Shown: in pieces, positions 50,516 to 56,434 of the stretch | Numbering within the stretch: position 1 is the first letter of the stretch | How the letters are laid out: every line of letters starts with the position of its first letter | Assembly: GCA_023379805.1 (NCBI GenBank) | Contig: JAMCPI010000013.1 | Coordinates: forward strand, 62,001-126,000 | Origin: Nitrososphaerota archaeon | Lineage (GTDB): Archaea > Thermoproteota > Nitrososphaeria > Nitrososphaerales > JACPRH01 | Length of the DNA: 64,000 nucleotides | Reading direction: 5' to 3' | Translations under genes and position numbers: made by a program | Notes under the pieces: generated by a model | The model's database searches: none | Told to the model about the DNA's origin: nothing | What the model saw: the letters and a program-made list of their open reading frames with translations, nothing else

Positions 50516-50899
50516 GTGGACATTGAGGTTACTAGCGATATCGAGAATAAGCTGCTTGGAAGACGTGAGGTTGAATGCGTCTTTAGAGGCACCTCGGGCG
50601 CTCTCTCTCGGAGCGATGCTGCTCAAGCTGTTTCTAAGCAGATGAAGGCTTCAGATAAGAAGGTCTACACCGTTCTGCTAAAAGGTGCGTACGGAACTAG
50701 GGATCTTAAGGGTGTGTTTTACATCTACAGTGATGATGAAGCTGCAAAGAAGGATCTCCAGACATATGTGTTGAAACGAAACGGCGTAGTCACAGAACCA
50801 GCTGCCGCTGAGGCTGCACCTGCAGCTGAGAAAGCTGCGGAGAAGCCTGCAGAAAAGCCTAAAGAGGCTGCGGAAGCCCCTAAGAAGGAGCAGAAATAA
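50516..50899 (+). CDS. rps24e: small ribosomal subunit protein eS24
   Basis: The 127-residue protein starts at GTG 50516. The core has DIENKLLGRREVECVFRG, SRSDAAQAVSKQMKA and GAYGTRDLKGVFYIYSDDEA. An Ala/Glu/Lys-rich tail (about 98-127) is of the same style as those of eS6 and Rpo7 here. It is 2 bp from eS31. Confidence 0.94.
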   Translation: MDIEVTSDIENKLLGRREVECVFRGTSGALSRSDAAQAVSKQMKASDKKVYTVLLKGAYGTRDLKGVFYIYSDDEAAKKDLQTYVLKRNGVVTEPAAAEAAPAAEKAAEKPAEKPKEAAEAPKKEQK

Positions 50900-50901
50900 C
50901 C

Positions 50902-51099
50902 ATGTCTGAAGCAGCAGCTTCTAAGAAGAAGGATAAGCCAAGCCCACAGGTCTGGAAGTTCTACCAGATCGAAGGCGGAAGCCTGAAGCGATTGAAGAAG
51001 GAGTGCCCACGCTGCGGCCGAGGCGTCTTCTTAGCTGAGCACAGAGACCGCTTCACCTGCGGCAAATGCAACTACACTACCTTCAAGCAGCACGCATAG
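50902..51099 (+). CDS. rps27ae: small ribosomal subunit protein eS31
   Basis: The 65-residue zinc ribbon protein (CPRCGRGVFLAEHRDRFTCG with KCNYT) lacks ubiquitin fusion, as in archaea. An AAGGAGC site precedes ATG 50902. It ends the ribosomal run. In many archaea kae1-bud32 follows, and here it does not. Confidence 0.94.
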   Translation: MSEAAASKKKDKPSPQVWKFYQIEGGSLKRLKKECPRCGRGVFLAEHRDRFTCGKCNYTTFKQHA

Positions 51100-51618: not shown

Positions 51619-53286
51619 TTAGGTTGCTGCAGCGTTTTTCCTAATCTCTTGTCTAACGGCCCGTACAACGTTAGGTGCGAGGATGGGTTGGAATGGCGCT
51701 AGATACTTGAGCTTCAAGGCCTCTGTAATGGCCTCTTTCTTACCGTGTTTCAGGTAGCCGTTCAGAAACTCTTTCACTAGAATCCGGACTGCTCCCTCGT
51801 CAACAGTGAACTTTGATGAATAATAGATGAACTCCGCGATATCCCAGCCGCAGTCGTTACCGCAGGCTGCCTGCTCCAAGTCGACAAGATAGATTTTCCC
51901 GTCTGAAAATATGGTGTTGCTCGGCTTGGTGTCTCCGAGGGTGTAGCCTTCCTGATGCACTCTGCCAAGAGCTTCACCGTAAAGCCGAACTGCATTCATA
52001 GCCTGCTCGTCTCCGCTCAACGCCTTGGGAAGCAGCTGCCCCACATCAGAGCCTTCAATGAACTCGGTTACAAGAAGCCTCTGGTCAAGCGCCACAGCCA
52101 GTACGTTCGGTGTCTTGAACCCTAATCCTCTCAACCGCCTCAAAGCGGAGTACTCTCTCTGCAACCTAGAGGTCTGACCCATATCAAACCGCTTCGAAAG
52201 CAGTGCCCACATGTTCAGCACCACCCATTTGAAGGCCTTCGCATCAGCGAAGTTCTTGACAGCAAACTTCACCGTTTTACCCCGGTCGTTCACACAGTAG
52301 ACCTTGGTGACCGAGTACACCTCCCCCATACCGTTCTTACTCACCTCTCCGCCCCGCTCAATACCCATGTGCTCAATCAGTTTGCCGAACCAGTCATCCT
52401 CATCAGTGATCAGCAGCCCCTCCTGAAGCCGCCACAGCCTCCTCGGATGCCTGATTACATCAGGAACCTCAAACCCTTTTCTTGACCGAGATATCTTTGA
52501 GCTCACTTCACGCCTAACTGTGCTTAGCCCCACTCTCCCAGCGTAGCCGTGAACCGCGTACTGAGCCAAGCTTCTCCTAGTGTACGTCGCCATCTCGGTG
52601 AGTCTGGTGACCCAGTGCTTCGGTTCGTAATCCTTAATCTGCACCTTACCCCCGTTGAGCGTGATTAGTCCCTCGTCAGCAATCTCCTTCAAAACTTCGA
52701 GGAAACCTTGGCTGGAAGCCTTCGTGTTTCTACGGCCGTGCTCCTGACCATATGTTTTGGAGTAGCTGTAAAGTGCTGGTGGGTAAATCGCGGCTCGCTT
52801 CTTGAGCTTGTCAAACAGGAAGTATTCAACTGGAATTATGATTTCTTGAGCGAACTGTCCAATAGATGCTTCAATCTCCTCCAACGTCTCCAGCACGACC
52901 CTACGCTTGATCAGTATCTCGGCTTCGTGAAAGATGTCTCCTCCAGTAATGGGAACATAGACGTTGAGGAGTCGGCCTGCCACAAACTCCCCGAGCGACG
53001 CCTTATCCGCATCCATTAGCAGCGCTTCTCGGTCGACTACGAGAGCTGATGCGTCCACTTCGCCGTTGATGTATCGATACTTCACTCTGGGGCTGTAATC
53101 TTCAAGGATTACGATAAGATCGTAGTCGCTGTCCTTTGTCGCGTAACCCGCTACTTGTGAGCCGTAGACGGCGACTCCGACTATTTTTCTTCCTTCAGAG
53201 ACTTCGTTAGCTATCTTGATGAGAGATGCCTTCTCCGCCTCAGTTAGCTCTCCGGCTTCTTCTTTATCTGGCATTTGCTGAAGCAC
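51619..53286 (-). CDS. nucleotidyltransferase-kinase fusion protein
   Basis: The 555-residue protein has an N-terminal nucleotidyltransferase (about 30-110) with YGSQVAGYATKDSDYDLIVI, containing GS and the D-S-D-Y-D acidic pair. A middle helical region (about 150-280) is unassigned. The C-terminal Bud32/RIO-like kinase (about 310-510) has a Gly-rich GMGEVYSVTKVYCV, FAVKNF (ATP Lys), catalytic LGDTKPSN and IYLVDLEQA (DFG equivalent DLE). It might modify a tRNA or protein, but that is speculation. It overlaps the HExxH gene upstream by 23 nt and lies where kae1-bud32 is often found in archaea. Confidence 0.8.
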   Translation of the reverse strand: MLQQMPDKEEAGELTEAEKASLIKIANEVSEGRKIVGVAVYGSQVAGYATKDSDYDLIVILEDYSPRVKYRYINGEVDASALVVDREALLMDADKASLGEFVAGRLLNVYVPITGGDIFHEAEILIKRRVVLETLEEIEASIGQFAQEIIIPVEYFLFDKLKKRAAIYPPALYSYSKTYGQEHGRRNTKASSQGFLEVLKEIADEGLITLNGGKVQIKDYEPKHWVTRLTEMATYTRRSLAQYAVHGYAGRVGLSTVRREVSSKISRSRKGFEVPDVIRHPRRLWRLQEGLLITDEDDWFGKLIEHMGIERGGEVSKNGMGEVYSVTKVYCVNDRGKTVKFAVKNFADAKAFKWVVLNMWALLSKRFDMGQTSRLQREYSALRRLRGLGFKTPNVLAVALDQRLLVTEFIEGSDVGQLLPKALSGDEQAMNAVRLYGEALGRVHQEGYTLGDTKPSNTIFSDGKIYLVDLEQAACGNDCGWDIAEFIYYSSKFTVDEGAVRILVKEFLNGYLKHGKKEAITEALKLKYLAPFQPILAPNVVRAVRQEIRKNAAAT

Positions 53287-53965
53287 TGATCTTTTCTAGT
53301 TCCTTCAGCTTACCTTTCAGGAGAGGATCGAAATTGGTCCTCAGGATTGATGCAACCGGGATTCTCACAACATTGGCGTCCGGCGGAATCTTGAAAACAG
53401 GATATCCTTTCTCAATCCACTTCTTCACAGTATTCTGATTCAACTTATCGTCAACTAAACCGTCCCCAAACTTCTTCTCAATCAGCTTGACCAACCCTTT
53501 ATCTTTGTAAAGCCACTTCGGATTATATAGCCGCTCGTAATCCGCGTAAAGCGACTCATGAAGCGTGCCTGCCGCCTCATCTGAGAGCAGGTCGAAGGAG
53601 GTGAATTTGCGAACCAGCTCCACGTAATGCATAAACTCATGCGCTAAAACTGCCTCGATAGTTCCTTTCAAACCGAAGGCGACAAGCGGTGCCGACAACT
53701 GAACAACAATCTGGACTCCAGCAGCCGGTTCATCTACCGGTATGACGCGAGCGTAAAGGGCTCCGACCTGCTCCGCTTCAACACCGCTCGTGGCCACAAG
53801 AAGCGTAGGCTCCACGTAATACGGTGGATAAGTTAGTCCAGAAGCCTCTTCGACTCTTGAGACACCCGCTTTCACGTATTTTATGCGGCTCTTGATCTTC
53901 TTCGCCATACTCTTAGGCAGGGCGGCAGCCGTCTCAGGATTATCCAACATAATGAGAGGATTCAA
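53264..53965 (-). CDS. HExxH zinc metallopeptidase-like protein
   Basis: The 233-residue soluble protein contains IEAVLAHEFMHYVELVRKF, a zincin HExxH helix. A downstream acidic helix (DEAAGTLHESLYADYERLY) could supply the third ligand. No signal peptide or membrane helix is visible, so it acts in the cytoplasm. Family otherwise unrecognised. It is translated before the nucleotidyltransferase-kinase, with a 23-nt overlap, so the two are co-expressed. ATG or similar start at 53965. Confidence 0.75.
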   Translation of the reverse strand: MNPLIMLDNPETAAALPKSMAKKIKSRIKYVKAGVSRVEEASGLTYPPYYVEPTLLVATSGVEAEQVGALYARVIPVDEPAAGVQIVVQLSAPLVAFGLKGTIEAVLAHEFMHYVELVRKFTSFDLLSDEAAGTLHESLYADYERLYNPKWLYKDKGLVKLIEKKFGDGLVDDKLNQNTVKKWIEKGYPVFKIPPDANVVRIPVASILRTNFDPLLKGKLKELEKISASANAR

Positions 53966-54141: not shown

Positions 54142-54864
54142 ATGTTTTCTTCAGGCGATATAATCGATTTCACATACAATATCTATTTTGATAAAGAGAC
54201 GCTTGAAAAGCAGACATTAGAAGAAATAGTAAGTGACTTAAATCTAGGAAGCTTCAGAACAAAGAACTTCAACAGTCTAACTACTTTCTTTGGAAAACTG
54301 ACCACATATATTCCAATTATTGAATTTAAGAACAAGGAAGATCATACTAAGTTATCAGTATTTCAAAATAAAATTCAGTTCAAAATTGCTTCTCCAAGTA
54401 ATATAATTCAAATCACTAGTGAAAACGACGCGTCTGAAAAAGGGATGGAGAAATTGTTATCCAAAGATTCCCTTAACGGGATATCTAAAGACGTAAGCTT
54501 GGTGTTAGGTGTTTTCCTAGGGGTAATGCATAACGAGCGTAGAAACCTCAAATCAAGAGTAATGCTTCGGCTGAAGAAGAAGGCTACACCGTTCAATTTC
54601 AACCAATTATTTATCGAAGGTGAGAGAAACTCAATTTCTAAAGGTCTGGAAAACATGCAAGTGGACGGCTTACAGTTAACATACAAGGAGAAGATTTTTG
54701 ATAGTGAAGCGTCTTCATACTTGAGATTTTTCTACGGTGAGACTGATGCTATAGCGGAGCTCAATACTAAAATGGAGAACGGAATGGTTGTGGACTTCGG
54801 AGAAATAATAGATAATAGGCTCGCACACATCAACAATATGGCTAAGACATTACGGAAGGATTAG
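54142..54864 (+). CDS. accessory protein of unknown function
   Basis: The 240-residue protein is rich in Lys, Asn, Ile and Phe, clearly AT-richer than its neighbours. No signal peptide is seen. It alternates strands and helices: TTFFGKLTTYIPIIEFKN, LGVFLGVMHNERRNLKSRVM, DGLQLTYKEKIF and a last helix FGEIIDNRLAHINNMAKTL. I recognise no family. It is followed after 2 bp by a helical/winged-helix protein, so the two form one operon, probably acquired. A defence or stress role is a guess from context only. Confidence 0.6.
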   Translation: MFSSGDIIDFTYNIYFDKETLEKQTLEEIVSDLNLGSFRTKNFNSLTTFFGKLTTYIPIIEFKNKEDHTKLSVFQNKIQFKIASPSNIIQITSENDASEKGMEKLLSKDSLNGISKDVSLVLGVFLGVMHNERRNLKSRVMLRLKKKATPFNFNQLFIEGERNSISKGLENMQVDGLQLTYKEKIFDSEASSYLRFFYGETDAIAELNTKMENGMVVDFGEIIDNRLAHINNMAKTLRKD

Positions 54865-54866
54865 AT

Positions 54867-55352
54867 ATGTCAGAATATAATTTCGATGAAAACACGCTTA
54901 GAGATGAGAATGTCATTAGACATATTCTTGAAAGACTCCCAGATGACGTAAAACAGAGCATTTTAAGTGAACTCGGCACTAAGCCCAAAGCCGTTGAGGC
55001 TACATACATAAAATTCAGCAGTAAAGATATTCCCCCAGTTCAGCAGGATATAGCGGGTAGAATTGAAGCACTAGAAAAAGTAGTAAAGGAGTCAAAACTT
55101 TCTGAACTACCTAAGGTAATTGAACTGCTAAACAAATTAGCAAGTTGTTCGCTTCTAAATACTGAGGAGACGATCGTGGCGCAAGTTTCTCCAGAGGAAG
55201 CGGTTAGCAGAATAAAGGAGTACATAAGAACGCATCCAAAATGTACTACCAGCGATATTATTGATGACTTGGCGATAGACCCCGATATTGTTATCGAAGC
55301 CCTATCACGTCTTGAGCAATCTGACGAGGTAGAGGGAAAAGTGGTTGAGTGA
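54867..55352 (+). CDS. accessory protein with C-terminal winged helix
   Basis: The 161-residue protein has an N-terminal helical stretch (ENVIRHILERLPDDVKQSIL) and a middle coiled coil (about 66-95, IAGRIEALEKVVKESKLSEL). The C-terminal winged-helix segment (about 108-158) has SRIKEYIRTHPKCTTSDIID and IVIEALSRLEQSDEVEGKV. It may regulate or bridge the partner encoded 2 bp upstream. Family not recognised. AT-rich. Confidence 0.6.
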   Translation: MSEYNFDENTLRDENVIRHILERLPDDVKQSILSELGTKPKAVEATYIKFSSKDIPPVQQDIAGRIEALEKVVKESKLSELPKVIELLNKLASCSLLNTEETIVAQVSPEEAVSRIKEYIRTHPKCTTSDIIDDLAIDPDIVIEALSRLEQSDEVEGKVVE

Positions 55353-55879: not shown

Positions 55880-56434
55880 CTAAGCCTGCACCTCCACCAC
55901 CACAGCGCCGTTTGCTTTAGCCTTACTGTTTGCTAGTGTCTCATTCTTTGTGGCTAGCTGTATGAGGTCTTTCCAGCCGTGCTGTAAGTCTAGGTTTAGA
56001 CCCGCAGCTTGAGCTGGTGTTTTCCCCTTTAGCGCTGAGTGCGGTCTTAGGAAGTTATAATTAACAACCATGCCGTCAAGTATTGCTTTACCTGTATCAA
56101 CGTGTTTTAGCCCTCTCATTGGTTTGAGTCTATCCTTCATTGTTCCGTGTAGGCGCTCTACAATGTTGTTTGTTTCTCTTGCACGGATACCCACGCGCTT
56201 AACCAGCTCGACTTTACCCACCTTCTTAGGATCACATTCAAAGGCTAGCTCAAAGGCCATATCGTATGAGTTTGAGCCGTCAACAAATATGGCGCTGGGT
56301 CGTATGGCGCTGTTATCTCGCATCTTCTTGAATTGCTGGTAGGTGTCCGATATGGTTCTGCTTTCTGATATGTGAGATGCTACTAGGAAGCGTGTTTCCT
56401 CATCGATTGCTTCCCAGAACCCATGTCGTCAGCG
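55880..56434 (-). pseudogene. IS transposase remnant (DDE family), 5'-truncated
   Basis: The minus strand reads HGFWEAIDEETRFLVASHIS, then FVDGSNSYDMAFE, NNIVERLHGTMKDRLKPMRG and YNFLRPHSALKGKTPAQAAG. It is an archaeal DDE (IS6/IS240-like) transposase retaining the D, D and E neighbourhoods. The frame is closed by TGA just upstream of HGFW, so the N-terminus is gone. An ATG-initiated piece of 147 codons runs from 56323. It abuts the 3' end of the phosphoesterase gene, marking the edge of an inserted segment. It is related to, but distinct from, the remnant at 45 kb. Confidence 0.8.

Follow-up and report, generated by a model that had tools for sequence, protein, structure and literature searches.

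A nucleotidyltransferase-kinase fusion as a candidate lipid-activating enzyme in archaea that lack CarS

Background

A gene pair in a Nitrososphaerota genome raises the question of what a protein made of a nucleotidyltransferase (NTase) and a Bud32/RIO-like kinase might do next to a HExxH protein. The pair lies in the window, by which we mean the whole stretch of 64,000 nucleotides analysed here. A preliminary description drawn from its sequence placed the pair where many archaea encode Kae1-Bud32, and considered it a possible signalling or quality-control module with transferase, kinase and protease activities. We refer to the fusion as NTK and to the HExxH protein, which is zincin-like, as ZNC. 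The answer that we favour concerns CDP-archaeol, the precursor of phospholipid head groups, whose synthase in Thaumarchaeota has been a gap since CarS was identified in 2014. According to one review CarS is not identifiable in Thaumarchaeota (PMC4244643), and a later one covers CarS in detail with no mention of Tam41 (PMC9385802).

The gene pair and its neighbourhood

NTK (555 amino acids) is encoded on the reverse strand at positions 51619-53286 of the window, from a GTG start, and ZNC (233 amino acids, TTG start) is its operon partner, upstream on the same strand at 53264-53965. The ORF coordinates and Pfam domains bear out the 555-residue fusion of the preliminary description, and both motifs that it had picked out in NTK, GDTKPSN and VDLEQA, are found. 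The 23-nt overlap that it reported between the two genes is also present, but hinges on the GTG start of NTK, as an in-frame ATG four codons downstream would reduce it to 11 nt. The surrounding genes are those of the Rpb7-Spt4-DUF359-eS24-eS31 cluster, and the ribosomal genes eS24 and eS31 (S27ae; 50516-51099, forward strand) are convergent with NTK in most Nitrososphaeria loci. Upstream of ZNC, the window carries a DDE transposase fragment (IS481/IS3/IS6-like, 55880-56323) and, between this fragment and ZNC, an uncharacterised two-gene insert (54142-55352); in a 93%-identical relative (L074) both are missing and the order is directly metallophosphatase-ZNC-NTK.

The designation of this site as the kae1-bud32 place holds for its position, opposite S24e-S27ae, and does not hold as a replacement: Kae1 and a true Bud32 are intact and encoded side by side on another contig (C14), each above its curated cut-off. 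Displacement of KEOPS by NTK is therefore ruled out.

Domain composition of NTK

NTK has no family of its own in Pfam or NCBIfam, and our literature search found no description of an NTase-RIO/Bud32 fusion. Its Pfam domains, all over the gathering cut-off, are an NTase (PF01909/PF18765) at residues 23-77 and RIO1 (PF01163) at 375-473, and its AlphaFold (AF2) model has a mean pLDDT of 88. Among the fold matches listed, the NTase closest to the predicted structure is Tam41, a CTP:phosphatidate cytidylyltransferase and mitochondrial lipid enzyme. Residues 8-256 of the predicted model align with 7ecd, the structure with CTP-Mg of a Tam41 from a Firmicutes bacterium, over 211 residues (Z = 14.1, 3.5 A), and in a Foldseek search Tam41 was the best-ranked NTase of the list (E = 5.5e-6).

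The NTase core, as delimited by the Pfam matches, conservation and this fold match, comprises residues 12-115 (52942-53253, reverse strand, as are all coordinates within NTK and ZNC) with GS at 42-43, DxD at 54 and 56 and VAGR at 102-105. The catalytic stretch GS...SDYD (residues 42-56) lies at 53119-53163; besides D54 and D56, no third carboxylate could be assigned with certainty. Gly104-Arg105 of the VAGR motif (52972-52977) resembles the xxGR of Tam41 (YLAGR, YVPGR). A middle, helical and winged-helix-like part follows (residues 116-217; 52636-52941), with R164, Y168-P169, Y173-S174-Y175 and N187. Next comes a basic helical stretch of low pLDDT (residues 227-270; 52477-52608), in a region (222-275) with a net charge of +8; by analogy with Tam41 (PMC7018664) it is a candidate membrane-contact helix.

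The kinase half (residues 294-551; 51634-52407) carries the full set of catalytic Lys, Glu, Asp, Asn and Asp of the RIO/Bud32-like superfamily, namely K344, E378, D452, N457 and D469, the last within D469-L-E-Q. Residues 279-531 of the model match human PRPK and archaeal Bud32 at Z of about 18, and the next fold matches are small-molecule kinases (PsiK, LxmK, MTR kinase, APH; Z 14-16). NTK thus resembles Bud32/PRPK and the RIO kinases in predicted fold and in its RIO1 match, but differs from Bud32 in that it scores 55-58 bits with TIGR03724, below the cut-off of 125, has DLEQ instead of DFG and is without linkage to Kae1.

Comparison with Tam41 and CarS

Tam41 consists of an NTase and a winged helix with CTP bound between them, and ends in a basic amphipathic helix (PMC7018664). 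NTK shares with Tam41/TAMM41 (PF09139; the mitochondrial and bacterial CDP-diacylglycerol synthase) the succession of an NTase and a winged-helix-like domain over some 210 residues, and the YGS and (F/Y)xxGR motifs; the basic stretch after the catalytic part may correspond to the basic helix of Tam41. For this motif comparison we used the Tam41 sequences of the PDB, a human TAMM41 sequence serving only as bait to fetch them. NTK differs in having a canonical DxD, a middle domain longer by about 45 helical residues and a fused kinase, and in being archaeal. A search of 21 genomes with the PF09139 HMM, at an E-value limit of 1, matched no NTK, the family is missing from a Pfam scan of 49 NTK members, and the hhalign alignment of NTK with Tam41 is weak and confined to the NTase core. 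For this reason the best reading of the predicted structure is that NTK works like Tam41, with no claim that it is a member of that family. A search of plasmid records for Tam41 found none. The net charge of the basic stretch is higher in NTKs with an intact NTase site (6.65 against 4.27), a comparison that is uncorrected for relatedness and in which the best hydrophobic moment is not higher.

CarS (PF01864), the archaeal CDP-archaeol synthase, would share with NTK the reaction proposed below and has a complementary phylogenetic distribution. It is, however, an unrelated integral membrane enzyme, whereas NTK is a soluble Pol-beta-type NTase that the PF01864 HMM does not match. A toxin-antitoxin or defence role for NTK was rejected, as the MntA and HalB matches fall far below the cut-off and the near-universal conserved location favours housekeeping.

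Fates of the two halves of NTK

The two halves of NTK have had different histories. The NTase site (GS, DxD and GR) is intact in all ZNC-linked loci and widely decayed elsewhere in the phylum, including most CarS-containing lineages, and many lineages with a decayed NTase site retain the kinase. S174, Y175, N187, H246 and A249 of the middle domain decay along with the NTase motifs, and D92, E133 and P169 persist. Because the middle-domain residues decay together with the NTase motifs, the sequences suggest a single active site built from the NTase and the middle domain, as in Tam41.

Most lineages retain K344, E378, D452, N457 and D469 of the kinase, and some have another residue at position 457. 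Within the ZNC-linked clade the exceptions are D452N in Nitrososphaera (L095, L097) and in two genomes of family f7 (G024, G055), whose kinase is without the catalytic Asp; in these two the replacement could be a step toward loss. In f14/g29 (L149, L150) the kinase is lost and a 278-aa NTase-only protein remains beside ZNC. Where CarS is missing and NTK present, then, the kinase may be lost or carry D452N, and the NTase is kept.

NTase state and CarS across the phylum

The genome of the window has no CarS, and no CarS match over the cut-off was found in any of the 61 genomes of the relatives set (our genome and 60 relatives). CdsA (PF01148) is missing from 59 of these; of the two matches, one (G022) probably stems from contamination, its contig carrying bacterial-type genes, and the other (G055) is weak and DolK-like. 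A bacterial-type CdsA was therefore rejected. Across the phylum, CarS is missing from 104 of 398 genomes.

We sorted 129 NTKs of this phylum sample into those with an intact NTase site (GS, DxD and GR present) and those with a decayed one, setting aside six that have no N-terminal half, and transcribed the presence of CarS by hand from the phylum listing. CarS is absent from 22 of the 23 genomes with an intact site (the exception being G072) and present in 97 of the 100 with a decayed site; the other three are G066, G200 and G424, one of them only 76% complete. As relatedness inflates the strength of this association (P = 4e-20 by Fisher's test), Pagel models were fitted on the tree of the kinase half, and the dependent model was favoured over the independent one (2dlnL = 31.8, 4 df, P = 2e-6). 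Some backbone supports of this tree are low, and the exact number of changes is uncertain. Intact NTase without CarS occurs in Nitrososphaerales, f24 with f37, f25/g50, f46 and f29, next to lineages with decayed NTase and CarS. The pattern recurs within family f25, where genus g50 has an intact NTase and no CarS and the other genera mostly a decayed NTase with CarS. In f34 and f62, which have CarS, VAGR is kept and D56N is the only visible damage. Such a reciprocal pattern is typical of two enzymes that do the same job and of which one is kept, and the tracking of CarS by NTase decay points to membrane-lipid activation rather than signalling.

The anticorrelation could also be indirect: an enzyme common to these lineages, other than NTK, would make CDP-archaeol and would have rendered CarS dispensable, the job of NTK being unrelated. 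Family f9, probably Nitrosopumilaceae, and the NTK-less part of f7 speak for this, as searches of these genomes for NTK, a homologue of its NTase half, CarS and CdsA found none of the four. At least one further enzyme must therefore exist, and it could serve NTK-bearing lineages too. This explanation must, however, also account for why NTase decay goes with CarS in several lineages independently of one another, and even inside a single family, and we consider it unlikely. A DolK/CTP-transferase-like membrane protein encoded in an f7 genome (G055; L208:1447-2088) is a possible CDP-archaeol synthase of NTK-less ammonia oxidisers.

A proposed role in lipid activation

The reading that we prefer, as a serious possibility that stops short of being probable, is that the NTase half acts as a lipid cytidylyltransferase, like Tam41, in place of CarS, that NTK is bifunctional with its Bud32-like kinase, and that ZNC is a separable operon partner. 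It builds on the domain make-up, the conservation of residues and operon, the reciprocal decay of NTase and CarS and the absence of CarS and CdsA in the order, together with the Tam41- and Bud32-like folds of the predicted model. Put forward somewhat more tentatively, the NTase half would supply many archaea without CarS with their missing CDP-archaeol synthase. It would be a soluble Tam41-type lipid cytidylyltransferase of Pol-beta fold and, through its fusion to a lipid kinase, a single protein would produce archaetidic acid as well as CDP-archaeol. NTK and CarS would have coexisted in an ancestor, and its descendants would have lost one or the other.

In the proposed mechanism, CTP would bind between the NTase and the middle domain, D54 and D56 would hold the metal ions that activate CMP transfer, and CMP would be passed, at the membrane, to the phosphate of an acceptor, most likely DGGGP (unsaturated archaetidic acid), yielding CDP-archaeol. 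The kinase half probably phosphorylates a lipid alcohol, in salvage, or regulates the transferase. Salvage of lipid alcohols would account for the fusion, for survival of the kinase where CarS does the second step and for lineages that manage without the kinase when the phosphate comes from the de novo route. ZNC may be a soluble, zincin-like protein that is transcribed together with NTK and whose role is separable, possibly lying in the turnover of membrane-enzyme proteins. We infer the specificity for CTP and lipid, the substrate of the kinase and the role of ZNC from these comparisons. The main weaknesses of the lipid reading are f9 and the part of f7 that lack both NTK and CarS, and the failure of the Tam41 family HMM to match NTK. 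It also counts against this reading that G072 has both an intact NTK and CarS, that the kinase is nearest to Bud32 and not to a known lipid kinase, and that some partners of NTK look RNA-related; the role of ZNC is not explained by it.

ZNC and its linkage to NTK

ZNC carries the motif AHEFMHY, in which the HExxH residues H109, E110 and H113 are invariant (42 of 42). The zinc-binding HEFMH (residues 109-113) lies at 53627-53641, and E137, conserved in Nitrososphaerales, is a candidate third ligand. ZNC has no match in Pfam or NCBIfam; almost every leading fold match of its model is a metallopeptidase (Z of about 7.3), with Foldseek E-values above 0.1. It has HExxH in common with SprT/Spartan and the minigluzincins (selecase, abylysin), whose zincin-like fold its model may share (Z of about 7), but no sequence match to them, and its helical C-terminal part is larger. 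ImmA/IrrE is not among the fold matches, which proves nothing.

In the relatives set, NTK is found in 50 and ZNC in 58 of the 61 genomes. The arrangement of the two genes is not due to chance, because all 49 genomes with both have ZNC followed by NTK, adjacent and on the same strand; the genes overlap in 39 of 46 named-locus pairs. The coupling asserted in the preliminary description is thus a conserved one, and the pair is neither an annotated Pfam or NCBIfam family nor unlinked in relatives that carry both genes. Among named genomes it occurs in Nitrososphaerales, Conexivisphaerales and Geothermarchaeota, in the last of these after Rpb7-Spt4-DUF359 on the same strand. The linkage does not extend to most NTKs outside this clade, which are without ZNC: ZNC is found in 95 of the 398 phylum genomes, a minority of lineages, and Terraquivivens and several Bathyarchaeota have NTK and no adjacent ZNC. 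Conversely, f9 has kept ZNC, after SRP54-Pus10, with NTK missing, and nearly all ZNC-bearing genomes of f20 are without NTK. ZNC and NTK are therefore linked in one large clade but separable. In two NTK-less f20 loci (L153, L154) ZNC lies between an M42-type aminopeptidase and an adenosylhomocysteinase (annotated in L153), a setting that suggests a peptide-degradation context.

These distributions bear on the idea with which the locus was first described. In a protein-directed regulatory module, kinase and NTase would both act on one protein, which could be ZNC itself or a target of ZNC, and this protein would be modified by them and cleaved by ZNC; the strict adjacency and frequent overlap of the genes, the intact NTase of every ZNC-linked NTK and the Bud32/RIO-like kinase half all agree with this. 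Intact NTKs without ZNC in Terraquivivens-like genomes, f24, f29, f37 and f46, and the NTK-less ZNC of f9 and f20, do not, and the CarS pattern is not predicted. We think such a module improbable, and as a general signalling module of three activities the idea finds no support, given the confinement of ZNC to a minority of lineages, its occurrence without NTK in f9 and an NTase decay that tracks CarS.

Other neighbours of NTK

Outside the ZNC pair, NTK has other same-strand, mostly overlapping neighbours. An RNase J-like beta-CASP gene follows NTK, mostly with a decayed NTase, on the same strand and often overlapping it, at about nine loci (L158, L162, L166, L168-L171, L186, L187). At two, the gene for an MJ1316-domain protein (RNA cyclic end recognition) overlaps a kinase-type NTK at its start (L160:7346-7606; L183:7480-8154, the latter just under the Pfam cut-off). 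At three (L178, L196, L197) NTK, a methyltransferase and Elp3 appear to form an operon; the genes are annotated in L178, where a DUF1922 zinc ribbon is also present, and their arrangement is repeated in the other two. In a further group (L107, L108, L110, L113, L119, L201 and related loci) the flanks of NTK hold a TldD/PmbA peptidase and two other NTase-like proteins whose genes converge and overlap.

The first three of these arrangements, with neighbours seen outside Nitrososphaeria, would fit an RNA-linked enzyme, with NTase and kinase directed at the ends of RNA or at a factor involved in translation or tRNA; so would Pus10 and SRP54 upstream in Nitrososphaera and f9 and weak RlaP matches in 4 of 49 members. 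Such partners, however, accompany NTKs whose NTase site is mostly decayed, the neighbours vary by lineage and lie in translation-gene-rich regions, and the reciprocal CarS pattern is left without explanation; there is, in our estimate, little chance that this is the role of NTK.

Two further settings weakly back the lipid reading. At L184 the operon that a kinase-type NTK overlaps encodes a CDP-alcohol phosphatidyltransferase resembling archaetidylinositol-phosphate synthase and a protein resembling CDP-inositol cytidylyltransferase, and a GGPP synthase is encoded 3-10 kb from NTK in several lineages. A kinase and cytidylyltransferase for another phosphate, giving a CDP-activated head group (e.g. 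a CDP-polyol) in place of CDP-archaeol, is the least likely of the alternatives, since it would not make CarS dispensable and the NTase and kinase are lost independently, even though the fusion order fits ROH -> ROP -> CDP-OR, small-molecule kinases are among the fold matches and the L184 operon concerns CDP-inositol.

In several Nitrososphaerales (L082:497-1474; L086, L096, L126-L128, L131) a UbiA-family prenyltransferase, closest to MenA and more weakly similar to DGGGP synthase, is encoded 1.4-3.7 kb from NTK. An orthologue of DGGGP synthase has been reported missing in Thaumarchaeota (PMC6431249), and this paralogue deserves a look.

Implications

The locus now reads less as a signalling module than as the gene of a candidate lipid-activating enzyme, and a long-standing gap becomes directly testable. 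The candidate is named and can be expressed, its catalytic residues are predicted, a version without the kinase exists in nature, and what the hypothesis predicts phylogenetically is clear. If the lipid reading is true, Tam41-like lipid activation occurs in Archaea, which would bear on the lipid divide and on the origin of the mitochondrial enzyme.
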